Positions 5,036 through 64,000 of a stretch of DNA of 64,000 nucleotides are shown here, piece by piece. Within the stretch, counting starts at the first letter, position 1. Each line of letters opens with the position of its first letter. The translations under genes were made by a program, and so were the position numbers. Source of the stretch: Serinicoccus chungangensis (GTDB lineage: Bacteria; Actinomycetota; Actinomycetes; Actinomycetales; Dermatophilaceae); contig NZ_LQBL01000031.1 in NCBI RefSeq assembly GCF_001483745.1, positions 124,001 through 188,000 of the forward strand, read 5' to 3'. The notes under the pieces are model-generated. The model saw nothing but the letters and a program-made list of their open reading frames with translations. It did not search any database and was not told the DNA's origin.

Positions 5036-6052
5036 TCAGACCCAGCCACGGCGGACCGCCTGGGCGCCGGCGTGGAACCGGGTGGCCGCCCCGAGGTGCT
5101 CCATGATGTAGCGCACGCGGCGCTCGACGGTGCGCACGGAGATGTCGCACCGCCGGGCGATCACCTGGTCCGACGCCCCGCTGACGAGGAGGGTGAGGAT
5201 GGTCTGGTCGCGCTCGTCCAGCGGTGCCGCCGACCCGCCCTCCTCCTTGCGCCGGTTGGCGTCGCGCATCTCACCGTAGGGGGCCGCCAGCAGCCAGGTC
5301 CGCTCGATGAGGCTCGCGACGGCGGCCACCGGGGCCTCCATCCGGGCCTCGAAGGACCCGACCCCCTCGGGGTCGAACCGGCTGATGTCCACGAGCGTGG
5401 CGTCGTCGTCGCAGACGACCGCGGTCACCGGCACCCCGTTGCCGGTCCGGACGAGGGCGCCGTCGCGCACGGCCTGCTCCATGACCGCCACCGTGGCGGG
5501 CAGCTCCAGCAGCCCGGTGTCGAGGATCAGCCGCCGGTCGACCCCCGGCCGCACGGACAGCAGCCCGGGGTCGTCGGCCGCGAGCTCGAGCAGCCTGCGG
5601 CTGGCCACCGAGCCGTCGATCGCCCACCAGAGGCGCTCGGTCGTGGCCAGGTGCATCGCGGCGATCCGGCCCACGATGTCGTCGACCCCCCCGAGGAAGT
5701 CCATGCCGGGGACGACCCGCTGCACCCCGCCGTCGGCCGCCCGTCGCCACGCCCGTTCCAGCTCCCCGGCCGTGGCCCGGGCCAGCCGCAGCCGATGCTC
5801 GGTCTCGGCGGCATACCGGGCCACCGCCTCGCGCGGCGGCACCACGTCCCAGGTCCCCGGCGTGCCACCGGACCGCAGGAACCCCCGCGCCTCCAGCTCG
5901 GCCGTGGCCACGTCGATCTCCTCGTCCGTGAGGCCGGCGTCCCGGAGGGCGGGTCGCGAGGGGCTGCCGAGACGCACCGCCCGGCGGAACACCCCCGAGA
6001 CGAAGTCCTCGTAGGCCGCGCCGTGCAGGCGTGCGGGGGGCTGGGCGTCCAT
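5036..6052 (-). CDS. LuxR-type HTH regulator with TrmB-like N-terminal part
   Basis: 338 aa from ATG 6052 (GAGGGG sits just before it; ATG 6088 is the alternative). The N-terminus (LRDAGLTDEEIDVATAELEA) resembles a TrmB/winged-helix unit. The middle is a ligand- or phospholipase-D-like region of unknown role. The C-terminal ~65 residues are a LuxR/GerE helix-turn-helix: LDERDQTILTLLVSGASDQV followed by ISVRTVERRVRYIMEHLGA. A paralog with the same layout lies at 18266-19228. It is divergent from purD, with a strong 12-bp inverted repeat in the shared upstream region. Its target and signal are unknown. Confidence 0.75.
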   Translation of the reverse strand: MDAQPPARLHGAAYEDFVSGVFRRAVRLGSPSRPALRDAGLTDEEIDVATAELEARGFLRSGGTPGTWDVVPPREAVARYAAETEHRLRLARATAGELERAWRRAADGGVQRVVPGMDFLGGVDDIVGRIAAMHLATTERLWWAIDGSVASRRLLELAADDPGLLSVRPGVDRRLILDTGLLELPATVAVMEQAVRDGALVRTGNGVPVTAVVCDDDATLVDISRFDPEGVGSFEARMEAPVAAVASLIERTWLLAAPYGEMRDANRRKEEGGSAAPLDERDQTILTLLVSGASDQVIARRCDISVRTVERRVRYIMEHLGAATRFHAGAQAVRRGWV

Positions 6053-6221
6053 CCCCTCATGATGTCGGATGTCCGCCAACGGCGACATCCCGACGTGCCG
6101 TGGCGTGACATCGCCCTCGTCGTGTGCCACTGTGGGGAGGTCGGTTACGACCGGCGCAGGGATCGTGTGAGTCGCGCGGGCAGCCCCCCATCAGCCCGTG
6201 TCGACCCTGCCCTGCCGATGG

Positions 6222-6258
6222 CCCTCCTGGGAGATATCCCCCCTGCCTCCCAGGAGGG
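6222..6258. repeat. Perfect 12-bp inverted repeat upstream of purD
   Basis: CCCTCCTGGGAG at 6222-6233 and CTCCCAGGAGGG at 6247-6258 are exact inverted complements, separated by a 13-nt loop. It lies between two divergent genes, so it does not terminate either of them. It is either a DNA operator or an RNA hairpin in a purD leader, although the purD -10 box at 6334 argues for operator or small-RNA roles. No T-tract follows. The rest of the 295-bp gap shows no other feature I can support. Confidence 0.6.
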
Positions 6259-6333
6259 TCATCCTCGTCCGCGGGCCCGCCCGCACCCGCCCCCTCCGTC
6301 CCACCCGCGGCGCCTCGTGGTGCCCGGGGCCGA

Positions 6334-6339: not shown

Positions 6340-6347
6340 GCTGGCCC

Positions 6348-7634
6348 GTGGTGGTCCTCGTCCTCGGCTCGGGCGCGCGTGAGCACGCCCTGGTCCGCTC
6401 CCTGGCCCGCGATCCCTCGGTCGACGAGGTGCTCGCCCTGCCCGGCAACCCCGGGATCGCCGCGCTCGCGCGGTGCCTGCCGGGCGACCCGGCGGACCCC
6501 GCAGCGGTCGTCACCGCCGCCCGCGCGCACGACGCGGACCTCGTCGTCGTCGGGCCGGAGGCACCGCTGGTGGCCGGGGTGGCCGACGCCGTGCGCGCTG
6601 CCGGTGTCGACTGCTTCGGGCCCAGCGCCCGCGCCGCCCTGCTGGAGGGCAGCAAGTCGTTCGCCAAGGAGGTCATGGCCGCCGCCGGGGTCCCGACCGC
6701 GGCCGCGCACGTGTGCACCGACGTCGCCCAGGTCGAGCAGGCCCTGGAGGCCACCGGTGCGCCCTACGTCGTCAAGGAGGACGGTCTCGCCGCCGGCAAG
6801 GGGGTCGTGGTGACCGAGGACCGGGACGCGGCCCTCGAGCACGCGGCCGCCTGCCTGTCCCGCGAGGGCGGCCGGGTCGTGGTGGAGGACCACCTCGACG
6901 GCCCCGAGGTCTCGCTCTTCTGCCTGAGCGACGGCGCCGAGGTCGTCGCGCTGGAGCCGGCGCAGGACTTCAAGCGGGTCGGCGAGGGCGACACCGGCCC
7001 CAATACCGGCGGCATGGGCGCCTACTCGCCGCTCACCTGGGTCCCGGAGGACCTGGTGCCCGAGGTCCTGCGCACCGTCGCCCGGCCGACGGTGGCGGAG
7101 ATGGCCCGGCGGGGTATGCCGTTCGTCGGCGTCCTCTACGTGGGCCTGGCGCTGACCCGGTCGGGTCCGCGGGTGGTCGAGTTCAACGCCCGCTTCGGCG
7201 ACCCCGAGACCCAGGTGGTCCTGGCCCGTCTGCGTACGCCGCTTGCCGGCGTCCTGCGGGCGGCGGCCCGCGGCGAGCTGGGCGCGCTGGCGCCGCTGGA
7301 GTGGGACCCGAGCACCGGGGTCAACGTCGTCGTCGCCGCCGAGCACTACCCCGGCAGGCCCACCACCGGCGACCCGGTCGGCGGGACCGAGCAGGCCGAG
7401 CAGGTGGAGGGGGTGCACGTCCTGCACGCCGGCACGGCCACCGACGACCACGGCGCCCTCGTCTCCTCGGGGGGCCGGGTGCTCAGCGTGGTCGCGGTCG
7501 CCGAGGACCTGCCGCGGGCGCGCGAGCAGGCCTACGCGGCGGTGGGCCGGATCCACCTGCGCGGTGGCCACTCCCGCCCTGACATCGCGCTGGCCGCCGC
7601 CCAGGGCCGCGTGCGCGTCCCGCAGGAGGACTGA
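6348..7634 (+). CDS. purD: Phosphoribosylamine-glycine ligase
   Basis: 428 aa, the normal family length. It catalyses the second step of purine synthesis, joining phosphoribosylamine and glycine with ATP to make GAR. The N-terminus VLVLGSGAREHALVRSLARD and the ATP-grasp signatures DGLAAGKGVVV, FNARFGDPETQ and GPNTGGMGAYSP are all visible. The start is GTG at 6348 (a second GTG follows in frame), chosen because a TAGGCT box ends 8 nt before it. First gene of a purD-purC-purL operon: it stops 1 nt before purC. Confidence 0.95.
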   Translation: MVVLVLGSGAREHALVRSLARDPSVDEVLALPGNPGIAALARCLPGDPADPAAVVTAARAHDADLVVVGPEAPLVAGVADAVRAAGVDCFGPSARAALLEGSKSFAKEVMAAAGVPTAAAHVCTDVAQVEQALEATGAPYVVKEDGLAAGKGVVVTEDRDAALEHAAACLSREGGRVVVEDHLDGPEVSLFCLSDGAEVVALEPAQDFKRVGEGDTGPNTGGMGAYSPLTWVPEDLVPEVLRTVARPTVAEMARRGMPFVGVLYVGLALTRSGPRVVEFNARFGDPETQVVLARLRTPLAGVLRAAARGELGALAPLEWDPSTGVNVVVAAEHYPGRPTTGDPVGGTEQAEQVEGVHVLHAGTATDDHGALVSSGGRVLSVVAVAEDLPRAREQAYAAVGRIHLRGGHSRPDIALAAAQGRVRVPQED

Positions 7635-8630: not shown

Positions 8631-11600
8631 ATGGCCGCCCCCGACCTCGTCCTCACCACCGTGCCGGGCGGGTCCGCCCTGTCCCCCTTCCGCACCGAGG
8701 GCCTGCTCCGCCGGCTGCGACGGGTGGCCCCGCAGGTCGCCGCGCTGACCGCCCGCCACGTCCACGTGGTCGCGACGCACGAGGAGCCGGCACCCGCCGA
8801 GCGGGAGGCCCTGACCGCCATCCTCGACCACGGCGAGCCCTGGACCGGCGACGCGGTCGAGCGCGACGGGGCGGGCGCGTCACGGCATACCTCGCTCGTC
8901 GTCGTCTCCCCCCGGCTCGGCACCATCTCGCCGTGGTCCAGCAAGGCGACCGACATCCTGCACAGCTGCGGCCTCGCCGTGCGCCGCGTCGAGCGGGTGA
9001 CGGAGTTCCACCTCGTGCTGGACGGCGGCCCGCTGGACGAGCCCACCTGGACCGCCTGCGCGGAGGTGCTCCACGACCGGATGACGGAGTCGGCGCTGCC
9101 CACCCGCGAGGCGACCGCACTGCTCTTCGCCGAGCGCGAGGCCGCGCCGATGGAGCGGGTGGACGTGCTCGGCCGCGGCCGCGCGGCGCTGGAGGAGGCG
9201 GACGCGGCCTTCGGGCTGGCGCTCTCGCCGGACGAGATCGACTACCTCGTCGAGTCGTTCACCGCGCTGCGCCGCAACCCGACCGACGTCGAGCTGACGA
9301 TGTTCGCCCAGGCCAACTCCGAGCACTGCCGGCACAAGATCTTCAACGCGGACTTCGTCATCGACGGCCAGGCCCAGGAGCACAGCCTCTTCGGGATGAT
9401 CCGGCACACCGAGGCCGTTGCCGGCCGAGGCACCGTGGTGGCCTACAAGGACAACGCCTCGGTCATGGAGGGCGGCCGGGTCTCGCTGTTCCGCCCCGAG
9501 GGCGACGGCTCCGGACACGGGCAGCGGTATGCCGTGCACGAGGACACCGTCCACGTCCTCATGAAGGTCGAGACGCACAACCACCCCACCGCCATCTCGC
9601 CCTTCCCCGGGGCCGCGACCGGCGCCGGGGGCGAGATCCGCGACGAGGGCGCGACCGGCCGCGGCAGCGCCCCCAAGGCGGGCCTGACCGGCTTCGCGGT
9701 CTCCCACCTGCACCTGCCCGGCACGCAGGAACCCTGGGAGACCGCCGACCCGGGTCCCGGGTCCCCCGACCACCTCGCGACCCCGCTGGACATCATGCTG
9801 GACGGGCCGCTCGGGGCCGCCGCCTTCAACAACGAGTTCGGCCGGCCCGGGCTCGGCGGCTTCTTCCGGGTCTACGAGCAGACCGTGGACGGGGTGCGCC
9901 GCGGCTACCACAAGCCGGTCATGAGCGCCGGCGGGCTGGGGACGATCAGCGCGGGGCAGACCGAGAAGGTGCGCTTCCCCGCCGGGACGCTGCTGGTGCA
10001 GCTCGGCGGCCCCGGCATGCGGATCGGGATGGGGGGCGGCGCGGCCAGCTCGATGGCGGCCGGCACCAACGCCGCCGAGCTCGACTTCGACTCGGTGCAG
10101 CGGGGCAACCCCGAGATGCAGCGGCGGGCGCAGGAGGTCATCAACCACTGCTGGTCGCGGGGTGCGGACAACCCGGTCCTGGCGATCCACGACGTCGGTG
10201 CGGGCGGGCTCTCCAACGCCTTCCCCGAGCTGGTGGACGACGCCGGGCTCGGCGCCCGCTTCGACCTGTCGCGGGTGCCGCTGGCCGAGTCCGGGCTCTC
10301 GCCCAAGGAGATCTGGTCCAACGAGAGCCAGGAGCGCTACGTCCTGGCGATCGCGCCGGCCTCGCTGGAGGACTTCGCGGCCCTCTGCGAGCGCGAGCGG
10401 TGCCCCTACGCGGTCGTCGGCACCGCCCAGGAGGAGACCGAGCTGGTGGTCACCGACGGCCAGGGCGCGCGCGACGTCGTCGCCGACGCCCCCGTCGACA
10501 TGCCCCTCGGGGTGCTGCTGGGCAAGCCTCCGCGGATGACCCGCGACGTGCACCGGGTGGCGCGCCGGACCGACGAGCTCGACCTGGAGGGGCTCGACGC
10601 CCCCGGGGTGCGGGAGGCGGCCTACGCCGTCCTGCGGCACCCCAGCGTCGCGTCCAAGCGCTTCCTCATCACCATCGGCGACCGCACCGTCGGCGGGCTC
10701 ACCCACCGCGACCAGATGGTCGGGCCGTGGCAGGTGCCGGTCGCCGACGTCGCGGTCACGCTGTCGGACCACCTCGGGCTCGCCGGCCAGGCCATGGCCA
10801 GCGGGGAACGGATGCCGCTCGCCGCCGTCGACGCGCCCGCCTCCGGCCGGATGGCCGTCGGCGAGGCCCTGACCAACCTGCTCGCCGCGCCCGTCACCCC
10901 CCTGGACGACGGCTCACCGCTGTCCGGGGTGAAGCTGTCCTGCAACTGGATGGCCGCCTGCGGCGAGCCCGGGGAGGACGCCGCGCTGCACGACACCGTC
11001 CGGGCCGTCGCGCTCGAGCTGTGCCCCGCCCTGGACGTCTCCGTGCCCGTGGGCAAGGACTCGTTGTCGATGCGCACCCGGTGGGCCGACGAGCGGGGGA
11101 CGCAGCAGCAGGTCACCTCCCCGGTCTCGCTGGTCGTCTCGGCCTTCGCCTCCCTGCCCGACGTCGGAGGCACCCTCACGCCGCAGCTGCACGCCGGGTC
11201 CGAGCTGCTGCTCGTCGACCTCGGGGCCGGGGCGGACCGCCTCGGGGGCTCCGTCCTGGCCCAGGTGCGGGGCGCGTTCGGCGGCGCCGTCCCGGACCTC
11301 GACGACCCGGCGCGCCTCACCGGCCTCGCCGCCGCGCTGTCCGAGCTGCGGGCGCGGGGGCTCGTCACGGCATACCACGACCGCTCGGACGGGGGGCTGT
11401 GGGCGACGCTGGTCGAGATGGCGCTCGCCGGCGGGGTGGGGCTCGACGTCGCCGTCCCGTCGGGCGGCGGGCCGGCCGCGCTGTTCACCGAGGAGCTGGG
11501 CGTCGTGCTGGAGGTGCCCGCCGGCCGGGTCCCCGAGGCGCAGGACGTGCTGCGCACCCACGGGCTGCTGGAGCTCACCGGCGTGCTCGGCCGCTCGACC

Positions 11601-12703: not shown

Positions 12704-13135
12704 TCAGGTATGCCGTGACCAGGCGTCGAGCGCGGCCTGGACCTCCTCGTCGGTCATCGCGACCGGGGTCCCGACGATCCACTGGTGGCCGAAGGGGTCG
12801 CGGAACCGGCCCTGGCGGGCACCGTAGGGCTGGTCCGCCACCGGGAAGACCTCCACGGCCCCGTGGTCCAGGGCCAGCCCCATCACGGCGTCCGGGTCCT
12901 CGGTGAGCACGTCGAGGACCACACCGCCGCCGCCCTCCGGCGGCGCCGGGTCGGTCTCGTCGGCCTCCTTGACCTGCAGCCCGCTGCCACGCGGCAGGTC
13001 GAGCGAGGCGAGGACGACGGCGCCACCCATGGCATACCGCGAGCGCGGTCGGGCGCCCAGGACGGCGCGGTAGAACTCGATCGCGTCGTCGGCGCCCCGG
13101 ACCACGAGCTTCGGCGTGACCAGCGGGCCGCTCAT
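12704..13135 (-). CDS. VOC family (glyoxalase/PhnB-like) protein
   Basis: 143 aa. It begins PKLVVRGADDAIEFYRAVLG and contains the second beta-alpha-beta module with RFRDPFGHQWIV, the usual PhnB/DUF1428-like layout of the vicinal oxygen chelate fold. Metal ligands typical of true glyoxalase I are only partly recognisable, so the substrate is unknown. Convergent with purL. The C-terminal codons contain one copy of the GGCATACC octamer. Confidence 0.8.
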   Translation of the reverse strand: MSGPLVTPKLVVRGADDAIEFYRAVLGARPRSRYAMGGAVVLASLDLPRGSGLQVKEADETDPAPPEGGGGVVLDVLTEDPDAVMGLALDHGAVEVFPVADQPYGARQGRFRDPFGHQWIVGTPVAMTDEEVQAALDAWSRHT

Positions 13136-13269
13136 GCCCCCAGGCTGGCAGCGCCGGCCACGATCGGCAACCCCTCCCGGCCGGCGCTCCGTGCGGGCCG
13201 CGACGTCACCTCCTGACCGACCCGACGAGGACGGTGCGGTGTGTCGGTCCCCGGGTCTACGGTGCGGGT

Positions 13270-13788
13270 ATGCCGCCGACGAGCAGCCCGCGCACCGACC
13301 GTCCGACGCTGCCGGAGGGCTACGGCCTGCCGACCGGGACCGAGGGGACGCTGGCCTGGACCACGGTCGAGCAGCGCCTGCGCGACGCCGAGCACTACTG
13401 GTTGGCCTCCGTCCGCCCGGACGGCCGTCCGCACTCGGTGCCGCGCTGGGGCGTGTGGCTGGACGGGCGGTTCTGGTACGACGGCGCCCCGACCACCCGG
13501 CACACCCGCAACGTCGAGGCCAACCCCGCCGTCACGCTGACGCTCGAGAGCGGCACCGAGGTGGTCATCGTCGAGGGGTTCTCCCACGCCACCCGGGCGG
13601 ACGCCGACGGGCTGGGGGCGCGGCTGTCCGAGGCCTTCGGGAAGTATGCGGAGGCCGGCTACTCCCCCGGTCCGGACTCCTGGGCCGGCGAGGACGGCGG
13701 TGGTCTCCGGGTCGTCGAGCCACGCCGCGTGCTGGCGTGGTTCGACTTCCCGACCGACTGCACCCGGTTCACCTTCGGGGGCGACTGA
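13270..13788 (+). CDS. Pyridoxamine 5'-phosphate oxidase-family FMN-binding protein
   Basis: 172 aa. The split-barrel flavin-binding pattern is clear: LRDAEHYWLASVRPDGRPHS, WGVWLDGRFWYDGAPTTRHT and RNVEANPAVTLTLESG. Members of this group bind FMN, F420 or heme; the cofactor cannot be decided here. The start at ATG 13270 is 6 nt after a TACGGT -10-like box, pointing to a leaderless mRNA. The next gene starts 2 nt after its stop, so they probably form an operon. Confidence 0.8.
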   Translation: MPPTSSPRTDRPTLPEGYGLPTGTEGTLAWTTVEQRLRDAEHYWLASVRPDGRPHSVPRWGVWLDGRFWYDGAPTTRHTRNVEANPAVTLTLESGTEVVIVEGFSHATRADADGLGARLSEAFGKYAEAGYSPGPDSWAGEDGGGLRVVEPRRVLAWFDFPTDCTRFTFGGD

Positions 13789-14468: not shown

Positions 14469-15529
14469 GGCGCTGGACGACCGACGACGTCGCGCGCATG
14501 CGGCTGCTCTCGCAGCGCCTGGTGGAGCCGCTCGCCACCCCCGGTGAGGTGGTCCGTCACCTCACCTGCGTGCAGGGCCAGGACTACCCCGGGTCCACGA
14601 CCTCGATCGCGCTGCGGACGCGGTCCCGGCGGCTCGCCGAGGTCCGCGAGGCCTACGACGCCGCGGAGGTCGTGCGCAGCTGGCCCATGCGCGGCACGCT
14701 CTTCGTCGTGCCGGCGGAGGACCTCGGGTGGATGCTCGGCCTCACCGCGACCAAGGTCCTGCGCGGGACGACCCGCCGGCGCGAGGAGCTCGGTCTGGAC
14801 GACGCCGCCCTGGCGCGGGCCGAGGAGGTGGCCCGCACCACGTTGGCCGGCGGCGGGTCGACCCGCGACGCCCTGGTGGAGGCCTGGGAGCACGCCGGGC
14901 ACCCCACCGCCGCCGGCCGCGGCTACCACTCGCTCTTCCACCTCGCCGTGCGCGGGGTGATCTGCCTGGGGCCGACCGAGGGCCGCACCCAACGGTTCGT
15001 CCTCGCCGAGGAGTGGATCACCTCCTCCCGCACCCTCGAGCCCGAGGCCGCCGTCCTCGAGTGGTTCGTCCGCTACGTCCGCAGCCACGGGCCGGTGCCG
15101 GCCGCTGACTTCCTCTGGTGGACCAAGCTGCTCAAGCGCGACCTCGCGCCGGCCCTGGGAACCGCCCGCGACGAGCTGGAGGTCCTCGACGTCGACGGGG
15201 TCGAGCACTGGGTCGACCCCGCCGTCGTGGAGAGGTATGCCGGTGCCCGTCGGGCGACCGCCGCCCCGCTGCTGCTGCCGGGCTTCGACGAGCTGGTGCT
15301 GGGCTACGGCGACCGCCGGGCGGTCGTCACCCGGGAGGAGGAGGCGGCGGTGGTCCCGGGCAACAACGGGGTGTTCCGGCCCACCGTCGTGCAGGCCGGG
15401 CGGGCCCTCGGCACGTGGCGGCGACCGACGCGGTCCGGGGCCGCCGTGGTGGTGGAGCCGTTCGGGGCCGCCCTGCCGGGCCCGGTGGAGAGGGCGCTGC
15501 CCCGCCTCACCCGGGACCTGCCGGCCTGA
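14465..15529 (+). CDS. Winged-helix DNA-binding (HTH_42, AlkZ/YcaQ-like) protein
   Basis: 354 aa. It starts ATGA-overlapped with the YdeI-family gene. The pattern CVQGQDYPGSTTSIALRTRS, then SWPMRGTLFVVPAEDLGW (the WPMRGT/H signature) and LLPGFDELVLGYGDR at about two thirds, matches the winged-helix DNA-binding family that includes the crosslink glycosylases AlkZ and YcaQ. The catalytic Gln of YcaQ (QxQ) is approximated by VQGQD. A DNA-repair role is plausible but not proven. Confidence 0.8.
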   Translation: MRRWTTDDVARMRLLSQRLVEPLATPGEVVRHLTCVQGQDYPGSTTSIALRTRSRRLAEVREAYDAAEVVRSWPMRGTLFVVPAEDLGWMLGLTATKVLRGTTRRREELGLDDAALARAEEVARTTLAGGGSTRDALVEAWEHAGHPTAAGRGYHSLFHLAVRGVICLGPTEGRTQRFVLAEEWITSSRTLEPEAAVLEWFVRYVRSHGPVPAADFLWWTKLLKRDLAPALGTARDELEVLDVDGVEHWVDPAVVERYAGARRATAAPLLLPGFDELVLGYGDRRAVVTREEEAAVVPGNNGVFRPTVVQAGRALGTWRRPTRSGAAVVVEPFGAALPGPVERALPRLTRDLPA

Positions 15530-19397: not shown

Positions 19398-19814
19398 TCA
19401 GCAGCCGAGCTCGCGCGCGGCCGTCGCCGAGGACGCCCGGAGGAACTCCGTGCACCGGTGCTGCTCCTCGGTCTCCCCGATGCGGCCCGCCGCCGCGGCC
19501 AAGGACGCCAGGGCCCGCAGGAACCCCTGGTTGGGCTCGTGCTCCCAGGGCACCGGTCCCTGCCCGCGCCACCCGGCCCGGCGCAGCTGGTCCAGCCCCC
19601 GGTGGTAGCCGGTCCGTGCGAAGGCGTAGGCCGACACGTCGTCCCCCTCGTGCAGGGCGTCCTCGGCCAGCATCGCCCAGGCCAGGCACGAGCTCGGGTA
19701 TGCCGCGGCGACCGCCCGCGGGTCACCCTCGGCGAGTGCCCGGGTCGCGGGGTCCTCGGGCAGCTCGGTCGGGGGGATCCCCAGCAGGTCGGCCGACCCG
19801 ACGCCGCCGGTCAC
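19398..19814 (-). CDS. DUF3151 family protein
   Basis: 138 aa. DPATRALAEGDPRAVAAAYP, SSCLAWAMLAEDALHEGDDV and AFARTGYHRGLDQLRRAGWR match DUF3151, an all-helical actinobacterial family of unknown role typically encoded next to fructose-bisphosphate aldolase. The GTG start overlaps the fbaA stop (GTGA), so it is coupled to fbaA. The 169-bp stretch upstream of the next regulator contains nothing I can support. Confidence 0.82.
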   Translation of the reverse strand: MTGGVGSADLLGIPPTELPEDPATRALAEGDPRAVAAAYPSSCLAWAMLAEDALHEGDDVSAYAFARTGYHRGLDQLRRAGWRGQGPVPWEHEPNQGFLRALASLAAAAGRIGETEEQHRCTEFLRASSATAARELGC

Positions 19815-20922: not shown

Positions 20923-22509
20923 ATGACTGGCGCGTTCACCGACTACCCGACCACGCCGTCCATCTACGACGAGACGGTCTCGACGGACGGAGGCGTCAGA
21001 CCCGGCTACGAGCAGATCTCGACGCAGTTCGACACCTTCGGCCTCGAGGACGTCCGCAACCGCGGCGAGTACGTCAGCAAGAGCTACCACGACCAGGGCG
21101 TCACCTTCGACTTCGAGGGTGAGGAACGACCCTTCCCGCTGGACATCGTCCCCCGGGTCATCGATGCGGACACCTGGTCCCACGTCGAGGCCGGGGTGGC
21201 CCAGCGGGTGAAGGCCCTCGAGGCCTTCCTGGCCGACATCTACGGTCCGATGCAGATCATCACGGACAAGGTGATCCCCCGCCACATCGTGACCAGCAGC
21301 AGCCACTACCACCGGGTGGCCTTCGACATCCAGCCCGGCAACGGCGTCCGCGTGCACGTCTCGGGCATCGACCTCATCCGGGACGGCGAGGGCGCCTTCC
21401 GGGTGCTCGAGGACAACGTGCGCATCCCCAGCGGGGTGTCCTACGTCCTCACGAACCGCCGCGCCATGACCTCGACCCTGCCCGAGGTCGTCGGGACGCA
21501 CCGCATCCGGCCGGTGGCGGCATACCCCAGCCGCCTGCTCCGGGCGCTCCGGGCGGCGGCACCCTCCGGCATCACCGACCCCGAGGTCGTCGTCCTCACC
21601 CCCGGCCCCTACAACTCGGCCTACTTCGAGCACTCGCTGCTGGCGCGCCTCATGGGCTGCCGGCTCGTCGAGGGCCGCGACCTGGTGACCCAGGGCGGGC
21701 GCGTCATGATGCGGACGACGCACGGGCTGCAGCCGGTGCACGTCATCTACCGCCGGGTGGACGACGACTTCCTCGACCCGGTTGCCTTCCGCAACGACTC
21801 GGTGCTCGGGTGCCCGGGAGTCCTCAACGCGGCCCGCGCGGGCAACGTCACCATCGCCAACGCCGTCGGCAACGGCGTCGCCGACGACAAGCTCATGTAC
21901 TCCTACGTCCCGGACATCATCCGCTACTACCTGGGCGAGGAGCCGATCCTGCCCAACGTCGACACCTGGCGGCTGGAGGACCCCACCCACCGCGAGGAGG
22001 TCATGGACCGGCTCGACGAGCTCGTGCTCAAGCCGGTCGACGGTTCCGGGGGCAAGGGCATCGTCATCGGACCCCAGGCGAGCCGGGCCGAGCTGGACCA
22101 GCTGCGCGAGACGGTCAGCGCCTCGCCCCGCGGCTGGATCGCGCAGCCGGTCGTGCAGCTGTCCACCGTGCCGACGATGGTCGAGGACGGGCTGCGCCCG
22201 CGGCACGTCGACCTGCGCCCGTTCGCGATCAACGACGGGGAGAAGGTCTGGGTCCTGCCCGGCGGCCTCACCCGGGTCGCGCTGGGCGAGGGCGAGCTCA
22301 TCGTCAACTCCAGCCGCGGCGGCGGCTCGAAGGACACCTGGGTGCTCTCGGGCGACGGCCGGCGCACCCGGGTCGAGCCCCGGACCCAGCGCCAGGTGCA
22401 GATCGGCACCGCCCCGCAGGTGGCGCTCAAGCGCTCGGAGGCCGAGCCCGCCGAGCAGGAGCAGCAACAGCAGCAGCAGCGCACTGACCAGGAGGTGGCG
22501 TCGTGCTGA
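20923..22509 (+). CDS. Circularly permuted ATP-grasp type 2 protein
   Basis: 528 aa. QGVTFDFEGEERPFPLDIVP, ADIYGPMQIITDKVIPRHIV and VDGSGGKGIVIGPQASRAEL are signatures of the DUF404/DUF407 ATP-grasp family, predicted to form amide bonds (peptide-like products). A poly-Gln/Glu tail (six consecutive Q) ends the protein. A TAGGGT -10 stands 6 nt before the ATG. It overlaps the next gene by 7 nt. Comparative work by others groups this gene with alpha-E and transglutaminase proteins as a small-peptide synthesis system; the product is unknown. Confidence 0.92.
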   Translation: MTGAFTDYPTTPSIYDETVSTDGGVRPGYEQISTQFDTFGLEDVRNRGEYVSKSYHDQGVTFDFEGEERPFPLDIVPRVIDADTWSHVEAGVAQRVKALEAFLADIYGPMQIITDKVIPRHIVTSSSHYHRVAFDIQPGNGVRVHVSGIDLIRDGEGAFRVLEDNVRIPSGVSYVLTNRRAMTSTLPEVVGTHRIRPVAAYPSRLLRALRAAAPSGITDPEVVVLTPGPYNSAYFEHSLLARLMGCRLVEGRDLVTQGGRVMMRTTHGLQPVHVIYRRVDDDFLDPVAFRNDSVLGCPGVLNAARAGNVTIANAVGNGVADDKLMYSYVPDIIRYYLGEEPILPNVDTWRLEDPTHREEVMDRLDELVLKPVDGSGGKGIVIGPQASRAELDQLRETVSASPRGWIAQPVVQLSTVPTMVEDGLRPRHVDLRPFAINDGEKVWVLPGGLTRVALGEGELIVNSSRGGGSKDTWVLSGDGRRTRVEPRTQRQVQIGTAPQVALKRSEAEPAEQEQQQQQQRTDQEVASC

Positions 22510-24285: not shown

Positions 24286-25089
24286 TCAGCCGATCGTCAC
24301 CGTGCCCAGGTGGTCGTCGGCGGGGAGGTCCCCGTCGACGACCGCGCTGACCTGCAGGGTGTTGAAGCTGAGGCCGCCGGAGTGCACCGTGAGGAAGGAC
24401 GTCTCGCTGGCGTCCGCACCGCCGCCGATCCGCACGAGGGAGGGCCGCGGGGCCAGGCGGGTGGGGTCGACCACCACCCACCGGTCCTCGACCGCCGCCT
24501 CGACGACGGCGTGGAAGTCCATCGGCGCGAGCCCGGGGGCGTAGCAGGCGACCAGTCGTGCCGGTATGCCGCGCGCCCGCAGCAGCGCGAGCGTCAGGTG
24601 GGCGAAGTCGCGGCAGACACCCTTGCGGGCGAGGTAGGTGTCGCTGGCGCCGTCGGTGACCGTCGAGGACCCGACGACGTAGCGGATGTGGTCGTGCACC
24701 CAGCTGGCCACGTCCAGGACACCCTGCTCACCGGCCACGTCGCCGACCTCGGCCCGCGCGACGGCCTCGAGCCGGTCCAGGTCGACGTAGCGGCTCGGTC
24801 GCACGTAGCGGACCCGCTCCAGCGGGCTCACGCCGGCGACGGCGCCGCCGTCGCTCACCGTCGCGGTGTAGCTGACGCTCAGCTCCCCCGGCGCCACGTC
24901 CCGCAGGACGTGCCACCGGGTGCCGGAGACCTCGTCCACGACGTCCTGGACCTCGACCTCCTGGCCGTCGAGGGTCACGGAGAAGGACTCGTCCTGCCGG
25001 GTCACCTGCTCGGCGACGGTGACCCCGAGGGTGGCCTCGACCGGAGACGTCACGGTGGCGGTCAGGTCGGCGGAGAGGTGTCGGCGCAT
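24286..25089 (-). CDS. Second transglutaminase-like protein
   Basis: 267 aa, convergent with the previous operon (9 nt between stops). It has a beta N-terminal domain, then the core with Cys in ARKGVCRDFAHL, His in PMDFHAVVEA and Asp in WVVVDPTRLAPRP. It differs from the 23435 protein enough to be another subfamily (bacterial transglutaminase-like, SmtA type), so it is not a recent duplication. Cytoplasmic by lack of signal. Confidence 0.88.
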   Translation of the reverse strand: MRRHLSADLTATVTSPVEATLGVTVAEQVTRQDESFSVTLDGQEVEVQDVVDEVSGTRWHVLRDVAPGELSVSYTATVSDGGAVAGVSPLERVRYVRPSRYVDLDRLEAVARAEVGDVAGEQGVLDVASWVHDHIRYVVGSSTVTDGASDTYLARKGVCRDFAHLTLALLRARGIPARLVACYAPGLAPMDFHAVVEAAVEDRWVVVDPTRLAPRPSLVRIGGGADASETSFLTVHSGGLSFNTLQVSAVVDGDLPADDHLGTVTIG

Positions 25090-30340: not shown

Positions 30341-30427
30341 GGGCTCAGGGTATGCCGCTGTCTCCCCTGCAGGGCCGGGCAGGTCGTGGCCGGGCGCGCG
30401 CGAGGCGCGGGCCCGGACCCGCGTCCG

Positions 30428-31435: not shown

Positions 31436-31846
31436 ATGGCCCGGTTCTGGTTCGACGTGCTGGTGCCCGGCGCGCCCGCGCAGGTGTGGGAGCGGCTGTG
31501 GGACCTCGACCGGCACACCGCCGCGATCCCCCTCACGACCACCCTCGGCGGCCCGCTCGGTCCGGGGGCCGACTTCGTCGCCCGGACCCGCCTCGGCCCG
31601 GTCCGGATCGACGACGAGATGGTCGTGCGGCGGTGGGAGCCCCACGACCACGCCGTCATCGAGAAGGTCGGCCGCCCCCTCACCGGCCGCATCGAGGTCA
31701 CGCTGCGCCCGGCGGGTGCCGACACCCGGCTCCGGTGGGAGCAGGAGTATGCCGTGGCCGGGGTGCCCGGCGCCCTCGCGGCGCTGGCGGCCCCGGCCGT
31801 CCGTGCGGCATACCTGCGTGCCGTCCGTCAGATCACGCGCCCCTGA
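31436..31846 (+). CDS. SRPBCC-fold (polyketide cyclase-like) protein
   Basis: 136 aa. FWFDVLVPGAPAQVWERLWD, GADFVARTRLGPVRIDDEM and a terminal amphipathic helix (AALAAPAVRAAYLRAVRQI) fit the SRPBCC fold. Ligand unknown. Its stop abuts the stop of the convergent aztD-like gene (TGA/TCA back to back). Confidence 0.72.
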   Translation: MARFWFDVLVPGAPAQVWERLWDLDRHTAAIPLTTTLGGPLGPGADFVARTRLGPVRIDDEMVVRRWEPHDHAVIEKVGRPLTGRIEVTLRPAGADTRLRWEQEYAVAGVPGALAALAAPAVRAAYLRAVRQITRP

Positions 31847-40960: not shown

Positions 40961-40998
40961 GTGCGTGATTCTCTCTTCTCCGGACAGGGGGTATGCCG

Positions 40999-47664: not shown

Positions 47665-49104
47665 GTGGCGACGGTATCGGTGGACATCGAGGCCATGCGG
47701 GACCTGGTGCGCACCCTGAAGGGGGTGGAGGACGAGGTCGCAAGGGCGGAGTCCCGGGTCGTGCAGGCGCTCACCCGGTTCGGGCTGTCGTCCCGCGACC
47801 TGTCGGGCGTCGCCGAGATCGGCGACTGGGCGACCCGCAAGCACCTGGTGCTGCGCAACCAGCTCTTCTACGCGGAGTGGCTGGCGGCGAGCGCGCCGGG
47901 CATCCAGCGCACCGTGTCCTACGACCACCAGGCCGTGCCCGACCTGTCCTACGAGGAGGCCAAGCAGTTCGCCGACCGGGCCCGTGACCTCATGGACACC
48001 TACACCATGCCGCCGCCGCAGGAGCTCATCGACCTCCTGGAGCGCTACGGCGGGGACGCGACCTTCGCCCTGCTCGTCCTCGACGGCTACCGCGAGGGCG
48101 ACGGCTACGCGAGCACCGACATGGGGCCGAGCATCGACCTCGACTACCTCGCGGCGCTGGACGACTCGCCCGCCTCGGAGCGCTTCCTCCAGCTGTATGC
48201 CGGTTCGCTCGGCGTCCTCAGCCACGAGTTCGACTTCCCCGGTGCCGAGGACGTGACCGACGCTCGCGCCTTCGCGCTGCTCGCCAGCCGCGGCGACTGG
48301 TCGGCCGACTGGCTGGTCGGCCTGGGCGAGGACGTCATCCGCATCGAGCGGGAGGACCCCGAGGCGTGGGCGGCCGAGATGGCCGAGACGTCGCGCTTCC
48401 GCTACGACCGCCTGCCCGTCTTCCGCGACCCGCAGGGCGCGGACGTCATCGACCCCATGCCCTGGGTCCTGGAGGCGATGAGCCGCAACCCGGAGGCCCT
48501 GCGGGCGTTCCTCCTGGGGGGCGAGGACGTCCCGATCCGGGTCGAGGACGGGGAGGACGACTGGGACGTCGACATCCCGGCGAACCTGCGCCACCTCGCC
48601 CTGGAGCGGGGGTGGATGCAGGACCGCGGGGCCAGCCTGGGTGCGGCCCTCGTCGAGCTCTCGGCCCTGGACCCGGGCAGCATCGACCAGCACCTGGAGA
48701 ACCTGGACCGGCTCAAGCCGATGGACGGCTTCAACCCGTTGTCCTTCTTCACCCACCTCGGGCTGGACATCATCGGGCTCGTCCCGGGGGTCGGCGAGTG
48801 GGCCGACGGGCTCAACGTCGCGCTCTACGTCGGGGAGGGGAAGTACGTCAACGCCGGCTTCTCCTCCGCCGCCGCCATCCCCGGTGCAGGCACCGGGTCG
48901 ACGATCGCCAAGTGGATCCGGCACGTCAACCAGGCCGGGTATGCCGGGGGCGTCACCCTCACCGCGAAGGACATCAAGGACCTCATCCGGTTCCGGAACC
49001 ACGCCGACCAGGGGGACGTGTCGGGTCCCGGGCTGGACGCCCTGGACGACGCCGACGTGCCGCGGCAGCGGGTCGGCGGGTGGCAGGGCGCACCGGCCCG
49101 CTGA
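47665..49104 (+). CDS. Polymorphic-toxin-like T7SS substrate without a recognisable toxin domain
   Basis: 479 aa from GTG 47665. The N-terminal helical part (VSVDIEAMRDLVRTLKGVED) fits an LXG/WXG-type secretion domain. The middle is large, acidic and unknown. Residues about 365-415 (LDIIGLVPGVGEWADGLNVA, LYVGEGKYVNAGFSSAAAIP) resemble the pre-toxin TG motif that precedes C-terminal nuclease or other toxins. Only about 60 residues follow, with no recognisable catalytic motif and no immunity gene after it (the next gene is on the other strand). It may be a toxin remnant or an untypical effector. Confidence 0.6.
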   Translation: MATVSVDIEAMRDLVRTLKGVEDEVARAESRVVQALTRFGLSSRDLSGVAEIGDWATRKHLVLRNQLFYAEWLAASAPGIQRTVSYDHQAVPDLSYEEAKQFADRARDLMDTYTMPPPQELIDLLERYGGDATFALLVLDGYREGDGYASTDMGPSIDLDYLAALDDSPASERFLQLYAGSLGVLSHEFDFPGAEDVTDARAFALLASRGDWSADWLVGLGEDVIRIEREDPEAWAAEMAETSRFRYDRLPVFRDPQGADVIDPMPWVLEAMSRNPEALRAFLLGGEDVPIRVEDGEDDWDVDIPANLRHLALERGWMQDRGASLGAALVELSALDPGSIDQHLENLDRLKPMDGFNPLSFFTHLGLDIIGLVPGVGEWADGLNVALYVGEGKYVNAGFSSAAAIPGAGTGSTIAKWIRHVNQAGYAGGVTLTAKDIKDLIRFRNHADQGDVSGPGLDALDDADVPRQRVGGWQGAPAR

Positions 49105-49117: not shown

Positions 49118-49894
49118 TCACCGCCGCAGCAGCGCCAGCGAGAGGACCATGACGACGGCCCCGAGGAAGAGACCGACCAGGACCTCGCGGTGGCCCACGG
49201 CATACCGGCGGGCGCCCGGGACGAGCTCGAGCAGGCTGACCGCGATCATCATCCCCGCGACCAGGGCGAGGGACAGGTCGAGCCAGGCGGGTGGCAGCAG
49301 GGCCCGCAGCGCCAGGTAGCCGAGCAGCCCACCGGCAGGCTCGGCGAGCCCGCTGAGCGTCGCCCACAGCATCGCCTGCCTCCGGTTGCGGGTCGCCACG
49401 TAGATGGGCGCGGCCACCGCCAGGCCCTCCGGCACGTTGTGGATGGCGATCGCGAACGCCAGGACCACCCCGCCGGCCGGGTCCTCGACGGTCGACAGGA
49501 AGGTCGCCAGGCCCTCCGGCAGGTTGTGCAGCGTGACCACCAGGGCGATGAGGACGCCGCTGCGCAGCAGGGTCGGGTCCAGGCCCCGGACGTCGGGCAC
49601 ACCCGGCGCCGGGCGGTGCGGGAGGAGCCGGCGGAGGGCGTAGACGACCCCGGCACCGAGGGCCATCGCGCCCAGCACCGCGGCGACCGCGGGACCTCGA
49701 CCGAGCGCCCCGGTCATGCTGTCGAGGGCGGCGGGGGCGATCTCGACGAGCGAGATCGTCAGCATCAGGCCAGCGGCGAAGGCCAGGGCCACCGCCATCG
49801 CCCCCGGCCGGACCATCCTCGACCGGGTGCCGATCACCCCGCCGACGCTGGTGGCCAGCCCCGCGAGCAGGGTGACGCCGAGAGCCAGCAGCAC
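49118..49894 (-). CDS. ZIP family divalent-metal transporter
   Basis: 258 aa. The start is GTG 49894 because AAGGAGG lies 6 nt before it. Two HNxPEG motifs (VTLHNLPEGLATF and AIAIHNVPEGLAVA) are the metal site of ZupT/GufA-type ZIP proteins. Eight hydrophobic segments. Likely imports Zn2+ or a similar ion. A GGCATACC octamer fills the ribosome-binding spacer. Confidence 0.88.
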   Translation of the reverse strand: MLLALGVTLLAGLATSVGGVIGTRSRMVRPGAMAVALAFAAGLMLTISLVEIAPAALDSMTGALGRGPAVAAVLGAMALGAGVVYALRRLLPHRPAPGVPDVRGLDPTLLRSGVLIALVVTLHNLPEGLATFLSTVEDPAGGVVLAFAIAIHNVPEGLAVAAPIYVATRNRRQAMLWATLSGLAEPAGGLLGYLALRALLPPAWLDLSLALVAGMMIAVSLLELVPGARRYAVGHREVLVGLFLGAVVMVLSLALLRR

Positions 49895-50009
49895 GGCATA
49901 CCTCCTTGCGGGTCGTGCGTCGGACCGGGACGGCCTCACGGCCGACATCGTGGTCGGCCGACTGACGGTACCTCCCGGACGGTCGCGGACCGCGGGAGGA
50001 CGGGGCACC

Positions 50010-52827: not shown

Positions 52828-53451
52828 GTGCCCGCGCTGCTGACCGACACCCCGACGCTGACCGGCGACCTGGTCCAGCTCCGACCCGTCACCGCGCGGG
52901 ACGTCGGGCGGTTGCACGCGTTGATGCGCGACCCGGAGGTGGGGCGGCTCACCGGGTCGGTGCACGACGACGCGGAGGCCGGGCGCGACCCGTGGACGGT
53001 CGTTCAGCTGCAGGAGGTCTACGCGCGCTGGGCCCGTGACACCGACCGGCTGGTCTGGACGGTCGTCGAGCGCAGCACCGGCCAGGTCGCCGGCGAGGCG
53101 GTGCTGCTGGACCACGACCCCGGCAACGCCTCCATCGGCTTCCGCATCTGGCTGGGGGGCTCGCGCGACCGCGGACTCGGCACCGAGGCGACACGTCTCG
53201 CGGTCGGGCACGCCTTCGAGGTCCTGGGGCTGCACCGGGTCGAGCTCGAGGTCTACGCGTTCAACCCCCGGGCGCGGCGGGTCTACGAGAAGGTCGGCTT
53301 CGTGCTCGAGGGGACCAAGCGGGAGGCGCTGCGGTATGCCGACGGCTGGGTCGACTGCCACGTCATGGGGATCCTGGCGCGGGAGTGGTCACGGCCTCTC
53401 GACCCAGGGTCTCCGGCGCCCGGAACCACACCGCCGCCCCCAGCACGCTGA
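52828..53451 (+). CDS. GNAT N-acetyltransferase, RimJ/RimL type
   Basis: 207 aa. LTGDLVQLRPVTARDVGRLH, the acetyl-CoA loop RDRGLGTEATRLAVGHAF, then VELEVYAFNPRARRVYEKVG and FVLEGTKREALRYADGW are typical of RimJ/RimL-like N-acetyltransferases. Substrate unknown. The last 89 bp overlap the convergent MFS gene. Confidence 0.86.
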   Translation: MPALLTDTPTLTGDLVQLRPVTARDVGRLHALMRDPEVGRLTGSVHDDAEAGRDPWTVVQLQEVYARWARDTDRLVWTVVERSTGQVAGEAVLLDHDPGNASIGFRIWLGGSRDRGLGTEATRLAVGHAFEVLGLHRVELEVYAFNPRARRVYEKVGFVLEGTKREALRYADGWVDCHVMGILAREWSRPLDPGSPAPGTTPPPPAR

Positions 53452-55779: not shown

Positions 55780-56761
55780 CCAGCAGCTGCCCGTACCGCT
55801 CCGGGTCGACATTGCCCCCGGTGAGCACCACGCCGACGCGCTCACCCTCCTGCACCGGCACGGCCCCGCTCAGCACCGCCGCGAGCCCCAGCACTCCCGT
55901 GGGCTCGACCACCTGCTTGAGCGTGCCGGCGACCAGCGCCATCGCCGCGACGAGCTCCTCGTCGGTCGCGGTCACCACCGCGTCGACCCCGGAGCGCAGG
56001 ATGGGGAAGGTCAGCTCGCCCAGGTGCTGGGTCTGCGCCCCGTCCGCGATCGTCACCGGGGTGTCGATGTGCACGATCCGCCCCTGCTCCAGGGAGCGGC
56101 GGGCGTCGTCCCCCGCGGCCGGCTCCACGCCGTACACCCGGGCCTGCGGGCAGAGGGCGCGCACGGCGAGGACGGACCCGGCCAGCAGCCCGCCCCCGCC
56201 CAGCGGGGTGACGAGCACGTCGAGCGGGCCGGCGTCCTCGACCAGCTCCCGGGCCGCCGTCCCCTGCCCTGCGATGACGTGCGGGTGGTCGTAGGGCGGC
56301 ACCACCGTGGCCCCGCTCCCCCGGGCGATCTCGCGCCCGATCTCCTCGCGGTCCTGGGTGTAGCGGTCGTAGCGGACCACCCGGGCGCCGTAGCCCACCG
56401 TGGCCTCGACCTTGAGCCGCGGCGCGTCGTGCGGCATGACGATGGTGGCCGGTATGCCCAGCTCCCGGGCCGCGAGCGCGACCGCCTGGGCGTGGTTGCC
56501 GGAGGAGTAGGCGACGACCCCGGCCCGGCGCTGCCCCTCGTCGAAGGCTGACAGCGCGGTGAACGCGCCGCGGAACTTGAACGCCCCGACCCGCTGCAGG
56601 TGCTCGGCCTTGAGCAGCAGCCGGGCGCCGACCAGCGCGTCCAGCCGGCGCGAGGTCAGCACCGGCGTCCGGTGGGCCGCGCCGGCCAGCGTCGCCGCCG
56701 CGGCCTCGACGTCGGCGTAGGTCGGGAGGGTGGTGAGCGGCATACCCGCAGCGTGCGTCAT
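55745..56761 (-). CDS. Threonine/serine dehydratase family (PLP, fold type II)
   Basis: 338 aa from ATG 56761, or 332 aa from 56743. PLP lysine in VGAFKFRGAFTALSAF, the phosphate-binding loop LVTPLGGGGLLAGSV, VVAYSSGNHAQAVA. No C-terminal ACT domain, so it resembles the catabolic type or serine racemase/threo-hydroxyaspartate ammonia-lyase. Substrate cannot be fixed. Confidence 0.88.
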   Translation of the reverse strand: MTHAAGMPLTTLPTYADVEAAAATLAGAAHRTPVLTSRRLDALVGARLLLKAEHLQRVGAFKFRGAFTALSAFDEGQRRAGVVAYSSGNHAQAVALAARELGIPATIVMPHDAPRLKVEATVGYGARVVRYDRYTQDREEIGREIARGSGATVVPPYDHPHVIAGQGTAARELVEDAGPLDVLVTPLGGGGLLAGSVLAVRALCPQARVYGVEPAAGDDARRSLEQGRIVHIDTPVTIADGAQTQHLGELTFPILRSGVDAVVTATDEELVAAMALVAGTLKQVVEPTGVLGLAAVLSGAVPVQEGERVGVVLTGGNVDPERYGQLLGYNRSNDEAVV

Positions 56762-57923: not shown

Positions 57924-58003
57924 GCCAGGACGCGGCGGCGCTAGCGTGAACGCCCGGCCGACGGCATACCGGATCCGTCGCCCGACGAGCCGAGGAGCCC
58001 CGT

Positions 58004-60410: not shown

Positions 60411-60533
60411 CGCCTCAGGGTATGCCGCGCCGCGGCCGCCGGGTCGTGCGGAAGGGTGGCGGCCCGTCGCGTTCCGGGGCGGTCGGTCCGGCGGGTGAGC
60501 GCGGGGCGCGGCGGGGAGACCCGACGGGACGGC

Positions 60534-62467: not shown

Positions 62468-62631
62468 ACCGCAGCAGCGTAGGCGGGCGCCGGGCGCCCC
62501 GCCTCGGCCGTCGGTCGTGCCTCTCTACGACTTTCGTCGGGGTCGGGGCCGCGGGAAGGGCGACCATGGGCCCACCGACGACCGACCGTGGGCCGATGTG
62601 GCGGGGTGGCCCTGTCGCCGAGGGTGGAGCC

Positions 62632-63525
62632 ATGATCGAGATCGAGAACCTCACCAAGAGATACGGCGCCTTCACGGCCGTCGACGACATCAGCTTCACC
62701 GCACGTCCCGGGCGGGTCACCGGCTTCCTGGGCCCCAACGGCGCGGGCAAGTCCACCGCGATGCGGATGATGTGCGGGCTGACCCCGGCGACCTCGGGCA
62801 GCGCGCGGATCCTGGGCCGCCCCTACGCCGCCCTGCCCAACCCCACCCGGCACGTCGGGGTCATGCTCGACGCCAGCGCCCAGCACGCCGGGCGCACGGG
62901 TCGCGAGGTCCTCACCCTGGCCGCCATCCTCGTCGGCGCGGGACGCGGCCAGGTCGACGCGACGCTGGAGCGGGTCGGCCTCACCTCCCGCGAGGCCGAG
63001 CGTCGCGTCGGCAACTACAGCCTCGGTATGCGGCAGCGGCTCGGCCTGGGAGCGGCCCTGGTCGGCGACCCCCGGGTGCTCATCCTCGACGAGCCGGCCA
63101 ACGGGCTCGACCCGGGCGGCATCCACTGGATGCGCGGGCTGCTGCGCGACTACGCCCGGGACGGCGGCACCGTGCTGCTCAGCTCGCACCTGCTCTCCGA
63201 GGTGGAGATCATCGCCGACGACCTGGTGCTCATCGGTCGCGGCCGCATCGTCGCCCAGGGCACGAAGGAGGAGCTGCTGTCCGCGGCCGGCGTCGTCGTC
63301 GACGCCACCGACCGGGCGGCGCTGCGGGCGGCGGTCGAGCAGTCCGGCCTCGAGCACACCCCGCGCCCCGACGGCACGCTCGCGGTCGCCGCGCAGACCG
63401 CCGAGGTCGGCGAGCTGGCGCTGCGGCACGGCCTGGTCCTCACCAGCCTGGGCTCCTCCGGGGGCGGCCTGGAGGAGATGTTCCTCACGCTGACCTCCGA
63501 CGACGCCCGGGAGGTGGCGGCGTGA
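62632..63525 (+). CDS. ABC transporter ATP-binding protein
   Basis: 297 aa from ATG 62632 (GGTGGAG before it). Walker A LGPNGAGKST, signature YSLGMRQRLGLGAALVGD, Walker B LILDEPANGLDP, H-loop LSSHLLSEV. Export-type ATPase, probably for a peptide, lipid or antibiotic. Its TGA overlaps the next GTG (GTGA), making a coupled pair. Confidence 0.93.
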   Translation: MIEIENLTKRYGAFTAVDDISFTARPGRVTGFLGPNGAGKSTAMRMMCGLTPATSGSARILGRPYAALPNPTRHVGVMLDASAQHAGRTGREVLTLAAILVGAGRGQVDATLERVGLTSREAERRVGNYSLGMRQRLGLGAALVGDPRVLILDEPANGLDPGGIHWMRGLLRDYARDGGTVLLSSHLLSEVEIIADDLVLIGRGRIVAQGTKEELLSAAGVVVDATDRAALRAAVEQSGLEHTPRPDGTLAVAAQTAEVGELALRHGLVLTSLGSSGGGLEEMFLTLTSDDAREVAA

Positions 63526-64000
63526 CCGGCCCGACGAGCCACCCGCAGGCGCCGACGGCGACCCGCAGCCCCCTCGACGACCAGGACGGCACCATGGACA
63601 ACGCGACCCCGACCACGACCCACCCCCGCGGCACGAGCGGGTCCGACGCAGGCCACGCCGACGCGTCGCGCGGCGGCGGGCGGACGGCATACCGGCGAGA
63701 CGGTGAGGCCCCCGAGCTCACCGGCGGCGCGCTGCCGTTCTCCCGCCTCCTGCGCACCGAGCTGCGCAAGACCGTGGACACCCGCGCCGGGCGGTGGCTG
63801 CTCATCGTCATCGTCGCGCTGACCGCGCTGGCGATGGGGCTGGTCATGTGGTTCGGCCGGGAGAACGGCGCCGCCTACTCCACGCTCCTGCTCACCGCGG
63901 TGCTGCCCCAGGGCGTGCTGCTGCCCGTGCTGGGGATCCTCACCGCCGCCTCCGAGTGGAGCCAGCGCACGGCCCTGGTGACCTTCACCCAGGAGCCGCG
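63522..64000 (+). CDS. ABC-2 type transporter permease (partial, 3' end beyond right edge)
   Basis: Start GTG overlaps the previous stop (GTGA). An unusually long hydrophilic N-terminus of about 70 residues precedes FSRLLRTELRKTVDTRAGRW, where the first transmembrane helix (LLIVIVALTALAMGLVMWF) begins. Further helices follow up to the right edge (LLTAVLPQGVLLPVLGILTA, SEWSQRTALVTFTQEP). A later in-frame ATG at 63595 would shorten the tail. The rest is not in the window. Confidence 0.88.
   Translation, partial: MTGPTSHPQAPTATRSPLDDQDGTMDNATPTTTHPRGTSGSDAGHADASRGGGRTAYRRDGEAPELTGGALPFSRLLRTELRKTVDTRAGRWLLIVIVALTALAMGLVMWFGRENGAAYSTLLLTAVLPQGVLLPVLGILTAASEWSQRTALVTFTQEP

Follow-up and report, generated by a model that had tools for sequence, protein, structure and literature searches.

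A candidate DNA uptake word with dialects in Serinicoccus chungangensis and related actinobacteria

A stretch of 64,000 nucleotides from the genome of Serinicoccus chungangensis, a Gram-positive actinobacterium, carries on both strands a short word, CGGCATACC, which recurs through the whole genome and is matched by other words in related genera. This stretch, hereafter the window, is C31:124001-188000 of the genome that we number G000, which has 3.56 Mb in 33 contigs. Judged from sequence, CGGCATACC is probably a DNA uptake sequence with dialects, working with Tad/Flp pili and with ComEA and ComEC. We also give a little better than an even chance to a wider proposal, that of a Gram-positive code for the uptake of self DNA. 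Under this proposal, one actinobacterial family would use four dialects or more and a second family a related word, a putative receptor on the Tad/Flp pilus would read them, and mobile elements would counter the code by integrating into comEC and a pilin gene. In passages of a 2025 paper, the Neisseriaceae and the Pasteurellaceae, both Gram-negative, are stated to be the only families known for uptake words (PMC12616744). No actinobacterial counterpart was found among the open-access literature matches listed, which held few subscription papers and preprints, and nothing related by title was present among the matches listed for the letters of the word.

The octamer GGTATGCC/GGCATACC has 33 exact copies in the window, from 5810 to 63693, of which 15 are on the plus strand and 18 on the minus strand. 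A preliminary description of the window had reported the same number, as well as five copies of the neighbouring word GGTACGCC/GGCGTACC, and both counts were reproduced. Its GC content of 72%, however, has to be corrected to 74.3%. In 100 dinucleotide-preserving shuffles of the window the octamer occurred 0.68 times on average and at most twice, and no shuffle reached 33. Among all octamers of the window, GGCATACC ranks first (33 copies against 1.4 expected under an order-3 Markov model) and CGGCATAC, which is the same word shifted by one base, ranks second (37 against 1.9). The inner heptamer GGCATAC is present in 40 copies; it is preceded by C in 37 of them and followed by C in 33, and the base before the leading C is preferably A or G. 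Since GGCATACC and its shift CGGCATAC have the top ranks, with C favoured on both flanks, the full word is CGGCATACC and its core is GGCATACC. This 9-mer is asymmetric and is not a palindrome. The window has 31 complete copies of it, and forms with one mismatch have 0 to 7 copies each. The octamer sites of the window are as follows.

5810..5817, minus strand, GGTATGCC site, exact match
7113..7120, plus strand, GGTATGCC site, exact match
8884..8891, minus strand, GGTATGCC site, exact match
9526..9533, plus strand, GGTATGCC site, exact match
11369..11376, minus strand, GGTATGCC site, exact match
12707..12714, plus strand, GGTATGCC site, exact match
13031..13038, minus strand, GGTATGCC site with a differing flank base (TGGCATACC), exact octamer match
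13267..13274, plus strand, GGTATGCC site, exact match
15234..15241, plus strand, GGTATGCC site, exact match
19697..19704, plus strand, GGTATGCC site, exact match
21519..21526, minus strand, GGTATGCC site, exact match
24563..24570, plus strand, GGTATGCC site, exact match
25283..25290, minus strand, GGTATGCC site, exact match
28930..28937, minus strand, GGTATGCC site, exact match
30349..30356, plus strand, GGTATGCC site, exact match
31094..31101, minus strand, GGTATGCC site, exact match
31807..31814, minus strand, GGTATGCC site, exact match
33649..33656, minus strand, GGTATGCC site, exact match
34501..34508, plus strand, GGTATGCC site, exact match
35863..35870, minus strand, GGTATGCC site, exact match
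37568..37575, minus strand, GGTATGCC site, exact match
38554..38561, plus strand, GGTATGCC site, exact match
40990..40997, plus strand, GGTATGCC site, exact match
43599..43606, minus strand, GGTATGCC site, exact match
48938..48945, plus strand, GGTATGCC site, exact match
49199..49206, minus strand, GGTATGCC site, exact match
49895..49902, minus strand, GGTATGCC site, exact match
53333..53340, plus strand, GGTATGCC site, exact match
56451..56458, plus strand, GGTATGCC site with a differing flank base (GGGCATACC), exact octamer match
56739..56746, minus strand, GGTATGCC site, exact match
57963..57970, minus strand, GGTATGCC site, exact match
60419..60426, plus strand, GGTATGCC site, exact match
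63686..63693, minus strand, GGTATGCC site, exact match

The preliminary description proposed a genome-style repeat, to be refuted by genome-wide counts near expectation or by an enrichment due to codon usage; neither test refuted it. Using the reversed word as a composition control for whole-genome counts, we found 548 + 555 = 1103 copies of CGGCATACC in G000 against 3 + 3 = 6 of the control. This corresponds to one copy per 3.2 kb, or about 310 per million bases; by arithmetic, the density in the window is about 1.6 times this average. The enrichment is about 180-fold over the reversed word, 33-fold over the order-3 Markov expectation and 16-fold over a synonymous-codon shuffle. In a sample of 464 kb, composed of 20 stretches and the window, there are 132 copies against 4.0 expected from the Markov model. 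Genes for the codon tests were called with our own simple script. The called genes of this sample hold 109 copies, against 6.7 ± 2.5 and at most 12 in 60 synonymous-codon shuffles, and those of the window hold 24, against 1.31 ± 1.03 and at most 5 in 200 shuffles, so synonymous codon usage fails to explain the enrichment. Five of the six frames hold between 11 and 48 sites each and the remaining frame holds one; the peptides Tyr-Ala, Ala-Tyr, Gly-Met-Pro and Arg-His-Thr, which had been noticed before, were all found in the sample, together with Gly-Ile-Pro. The idea that otherwise rare codons serve mainly to build the octamer is true for TAT, with 12 of the 19 such codons of the window genes lying inside the word, but not for GCA (6/60) or GGT (4/198). 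The density of CGGCATACC in the sample is 0.41 per kb in intergenic and 0.27 per kb in genic DNA.

The balanced orientation seen in the window extends to longer stretches, with octamer counts on the two strands of 45/44 in 300 kb of contig C2, 19/23 in 100 kb and 21/18 in 98 kb. FtsK-orienting polar sequences (KOPS) are oriented towards the terminus. Strands are balanced in each of these three stretches, and a directional role of this type, already judged unlikely in the preliminary description, is rejected. The spacing of the octamers is irregular, with a coefficient of variation of 0.93 to 1.42. A stretch of 21.7 kb without any site (C31:93423-115171) spans one Tad pilus locus.

In the survey of other genomes, a word was taken to pass at a count at least 10-fold over its reversed form and, outside the genus, with at least 100 copies. 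CGGCATACC passes in 30 of the 31 genus members, which carry 193 to 1323 copies. The exception is G023, with 20 copies, in which the ComEC frame ends near a contig end. Among the other genera of the family CGGCATACC passes in 20/40 genomes, and it does so in no genome of the other families of the order and in none outside the family in a phylum draw of 396 genomes. Counting words de novo in 40 to 100 kb of genera poor in the word, and then in whole genomes, revealed three dialects, each with balanced strands. CGGCATCCG has 2294 copies in G056 and 1941 in G046, which belong to two genera of the family. CGGCGTACG has 2241 copies in G070, 1003 in G053 and 923 in G054, which represent three genera. 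CCCCCTTCG has 1939 copies in G067 and 1666 in G068, from two genera, against 20 and 22 for the controls. CGGCATACC, CGGCATCCG and CGGCGTACG have in common CGGC-(A/G)T, which CCCCCTTCG lacks. For CGGCGTACG the reversed form is a poor control, since an excess of 4- to 12-fold over it is also reached in certain other families, and the case of CGGCGTACG is carried by copy number and by the codon shuffle (33 against 7.2 in G053 and 35 against 6.9 in G070); G054 is unranked in the codon-shuffle list despite its 923 copies.

One of these four words reaches at least 10-fold in 27/40 of the other genera of the family. The remaining 13 are G031, G032, G033, G036, G038, G039, G040, G043, G044, G049, G057, G058 and G066, of which G031, G033, G039, G049, G057, G058 and G066 are intermediate, with at least one word at 3- to 10-fold and at least 100 copies. 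G045 was counted among the 27 by copy number. In its segment C1:1500001-1560000 a repeat of about 22 bp was observed, mostly intergenic and sometimes in inverted pairs, which contains GCGGCATACG; its enrichment is missing from the codon-shuffle list because the word sits in this longer, mostly intergenic repeat. Smaller variations can also be noticed. G050 has the one-base variant CGCATACC/G, and 21.7 kb of S. kebangsaanensis hold six copies of GGGCATACC and five of CGGCATACC. In a second family of the same order, f19, CGGCATCCG has 2245 and 800 copies in two genomes. Eight genomes of f19 were chosen for sampling and two contig stubs (1930 and 338 bases) were left out; a word of the GGCATCCG type is among the top three in all six sampled (G106, G090, G389, G347, G466 and G494). 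Family f19 may be the Microbacteriaceae, a guess made from its 8 genomes in the phylum draw, more than any other family of the order had there. Ten other families, each sampled by 40 kb of one genome, gave no comparably clear word, the strongest being CCTCGGCG in G110 (55 against 21.5 in the codon shuffle).

Sites are conserved between related genomes above background, a check that the preliminary description had suggested. In the comEC region of seven genus genomes, the octamer is kept in 100 of 158 pairwise cells, against 60.3 for GC-matched octamers, and the 9-mer in 61 of 116 cells against 37.2 expected; these cells are not independent, and only five of the 15 G000 octamers of the comEC stretch have alignable partners. 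Identity in these alignments reaches 0.86 for core positions and 0.78 for flanking ones, and gain and loss of sites are also seen across them. When locus L116 is aligned with S. kebangsaanensis, the octamer is kept at 3/4 sites while the adjoining bases differ.

The word is scarce in three mobile elements, on which the statement of its scarcity in mobile DNA rests, one of them counted in part. The first, C2:1-27634 of G000, occupies 27.6 kb at a contig end; it has a TrwC relaxase, a cadmium transporter and a lower GC content, and it holds no site against 8.6 expected (P = 1.9e-4). The second is a prophage in G002, with one site in the 40 kb counted against 9.4 expected (P = 8.5e-4). The third, an insert in comEC of S. 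sediminis (G018), has two sites in the 20 kb counted against about 6.4, by arithmetic from the genome count of G018. Inserts in a pilin gene, described below, were read over 17 kb and showed one octamer in 5 kb of G006 and none in 12 kb of G008 and G014.

A transformation machinery is encoded in these genomes. The ComEC protein of G000 has a full-length frame of 813 residues, the ComEA of this genome combines SLBB and helix-hairpin-helix, and three pairs of T2SSF-family genes are of the TadB/TadC type. A search with ComEC gave five Serinicoccus loci with identities of 70 to 88%, one each from two uncultured isolates and from S. kebangsaanensis, and the two halves of the gene in S. sediminis. 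NCBI places Serinicoccus in the Ornithinimicrobiaceae (Actinomycetota, Micrococcales); the family surveyed here is probably the Dermatophilaceae in a wide sense. By profile search, ComEC was found in 109/117 relatives; a DUF4244 Flp-type pilin was likewise found in 109/117, and the TadE-like protein of the DUF4244 pilin locus in 39/40 genomes. A DUF4244 match is absent from G038 and G066, which are both nearly complete and poor in the word. A differing Flp-like frame was observed in the DUF4244 pilin locus of G038. PilM has no match in G000 and partial matches in 2/31 genus members, one of which, G019, is over the cut-off together with its neighbours. Type IVa pili marked by PilM were for this reason rejected as the machinery.

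Inserts interrupt either comEC or the gene of the Flp-type pilin in 5/31 genus members. In G002 and G018 about 40 kb separate the two parts of the ComEC match, and the break falls at one and the same profile position. In G002 the insert, C1:1161102-1202035, is the prophage, and a serine recombinase lies next to comEC; in G018 comEC lies in two halves around the insert on C46. Three genomes have an interrupted DUF4244 pilin gene, with the break at profile positions 21 to 26.

G006, C1:3800591-3840893, pilin-gene insert of about 37 to 40 kb, split DUF4244 match
G008, C1:39571-52378, pilin-gene insert of about 13 kb, serine recombinase beside the pilin fragment
G014, C1:400961-425175, pilin-gene insert of about 24 kb, serine recombinase beside the pilin fragment

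A serine recombinase gene is thus found at the insert in 3/4 of the splits read into (G002, G008 and G014). According to passages of an earlier study, comYC harbours prophages, and comEC, comM and more competence genes are occupied by other elements; such insertions are interpreted there as protecting the element from removal by transformation (PMC4774983). By analogy, the inserts in comEC and in the pilin gene support active transformation in the genus, indirectly but as an independent line of evidence.

The preliminary description had offered a DNA uptake signal, a nucleoid- or modification-related site and a recombination site as possible functions. The uptake signal gains most, because dialects exist at the level of genera, the word is scarce in the three mobile elements, and the transformation genes are present and split by inserts; the other two are reduced. 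We favour the uptake reading because the word matches the neisserial DNA uptake sequences (DUS) and the pasteurellacean uptake signal sequences (USS) in its copy number, its balanced strands, its independence of codon usage, its dialects and its rarity in mobile DNA, together with transformation genes under attack. Under this reading the cells would be naturally transformable through a Flp/Tad pilus together with ComEA and ComEC, as is known for Micrococcus luteus, which we take to be of the same order as the organism of the window. A putative receptor at the cell surface, for which a minor pilin encoded in a Tad locus is the likeliest candidate, would bind the word and so favour DNA from kin. 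Fragments bearing the word would be imported and recombined more often, alleles that create it would spread, and the word would accumulate. Newly arrived elements would start without it, and a shift in the specificity of the receptor may lead a genome slowly to acquire a new dialect.

The resemblance to the known systems is as follows. Passages of a paper on the Neisseriaceae describe eight DUS dialects that share a core and are a few bases apart between branches of the family, and five genomes with no obvious DUS (PMC3630211). The word described here is likewise short and very high in copy number, with dialects in a family and some relatives without it. It differs in sequence, and it belongs to Gram-positive actinobacteria with Tad-type loci rather than PilM; no counterpart of ComP, the receptor of DUS, was found among the Tad minor pilins inspected. 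The USS of Pasteurellaceae, according to passages of the 2025 paper, is also a 9-mer, present hundreds or thousands of times, with two types that have a common inner core (PMC12616744). It has another sequence and belongs to another phylum, and uptake has been shown for it, whereas the present word is known from sequence alone. Transformation of M. luteus depends on two tad loci, and its genome carries comEA and comEC, which corresponds to the machinery proposed here; the passages available of that study mention no uptake word (PMC4322843).

Several observations weigh against the uptake reading. No report of transformation in Serinicoccus was found among the literature matches listed. Any host signature that is built slowly would be expected to be scarce in mobile DNA. 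Genomes poor in the word, such as G039, G040 and G043, likewise encode ComEC, the DUF4244 pilin and the TadE-like protein; the machinery therefore permits the word but fails to predict it, and with their near-universal presence these proteins were rejected as predictors. Among the Tad minor pilins, which were inspected in a few genomes for a receptor candidate, none was discriminating, and neither the gene content of the Tad loci nor the charge of the pilins gave a lead. No recombinase was found at the insert of G006 in the 5 kb read. In G015, 0/14 aligned sites are kept; this genome has 356 copies of the word, below most of the genus, and about 137 residues are missing in frame from its ComEC (C1:1055314-1057014). 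CCCCCTTCG has little in common with the other three words. Finally, close inverted pairs of the word are not enriched in G000 (1 against 3.7 expected), which counts against uptake because such pairs are common in classical DUS and USS; a main role in inverted pairs or terminators is likewise unsupported in this genome.

The main rival, which we regard as unlikely, is a signature similar to highly iterated palindrome 1 (HIP1), in which the word would be made and kept by DNA modification together with a bias of repair or recombination, and not by uptake. Passages on HIP1 describe a highly iterated cyanobacterial octamer with 1000 to 2000 copies per million bases. Some genomes have alternates in its place, and a matching methyltransferase is predicted for each HIP (PMC4390886). 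The iteration and the alternates are similar here, at the lower density of 310 per million, and scarcity in young mobile DNA would also fit. However, these elements are palindromes and are tied to methyltransferases; CGGCATACC and CCCCCTTCG are not palindromic, and the inserts in comEC and in the pilin gene point to transformation. We find it still less likely that the word is bound by a protein of the nucleoid or of chromosome organisation, with a recognition that has drifted between genera. A strand-balanced word that is spread over the chromosome, in genic and intergenic DNA, would suit such a protein, but replacement by CCCCCTTCG in two genera and the near-loss in G023 would be surprising if the word served the chromosome in a core role, and the spacing is irregular. 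A hotspot of recombination similar to Chi, read by an enzyme of the RecBCD or AdnAB type, is very improbable. The words are short, non-palindromic and lineage-specific, and a role in recombining imported DNA is conceivable. Chi sites, however, have a strand bias with replication, and on the strand balance over 300 kb this possibility was rejected; the 33-fold excess over the Markov expectation is, to our knowledge, also well above that of known Chi sites. Composition, codon usage or amino-acid pairs have almost no chance of explaining the word, even though some other top octamers of these genomes look codon-driven, as they are ruled out by the dinucleotide shuffles, the Markov expectation and the synonymous-codon shuffle, with the reversed-word control and the several frames also speaking against them.

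If the uptake reading is true, this would be a third case of uptake words, found in actinobacteria and having several dialects, and self-recognition in transformation would have arisen again with a different pilus. The word would single out actinobacteria that can probably be transformed and, added to donor DNA, it would be a practical handle for genera that are hard to engineer. Its many dialects would offer a system in which joint change of receptor and word could be followed.

Two minor observations concern other genomes. Intergenic inverted pairs of the words are present in G056 and G067. Furthermore, family f22 has a mild excess of CGGCATACC over the reversed word, mostly 2- to 5-fold (for example, 88 + 94 against 16 + 26 copies in G164), which is perhaps codon-driven.

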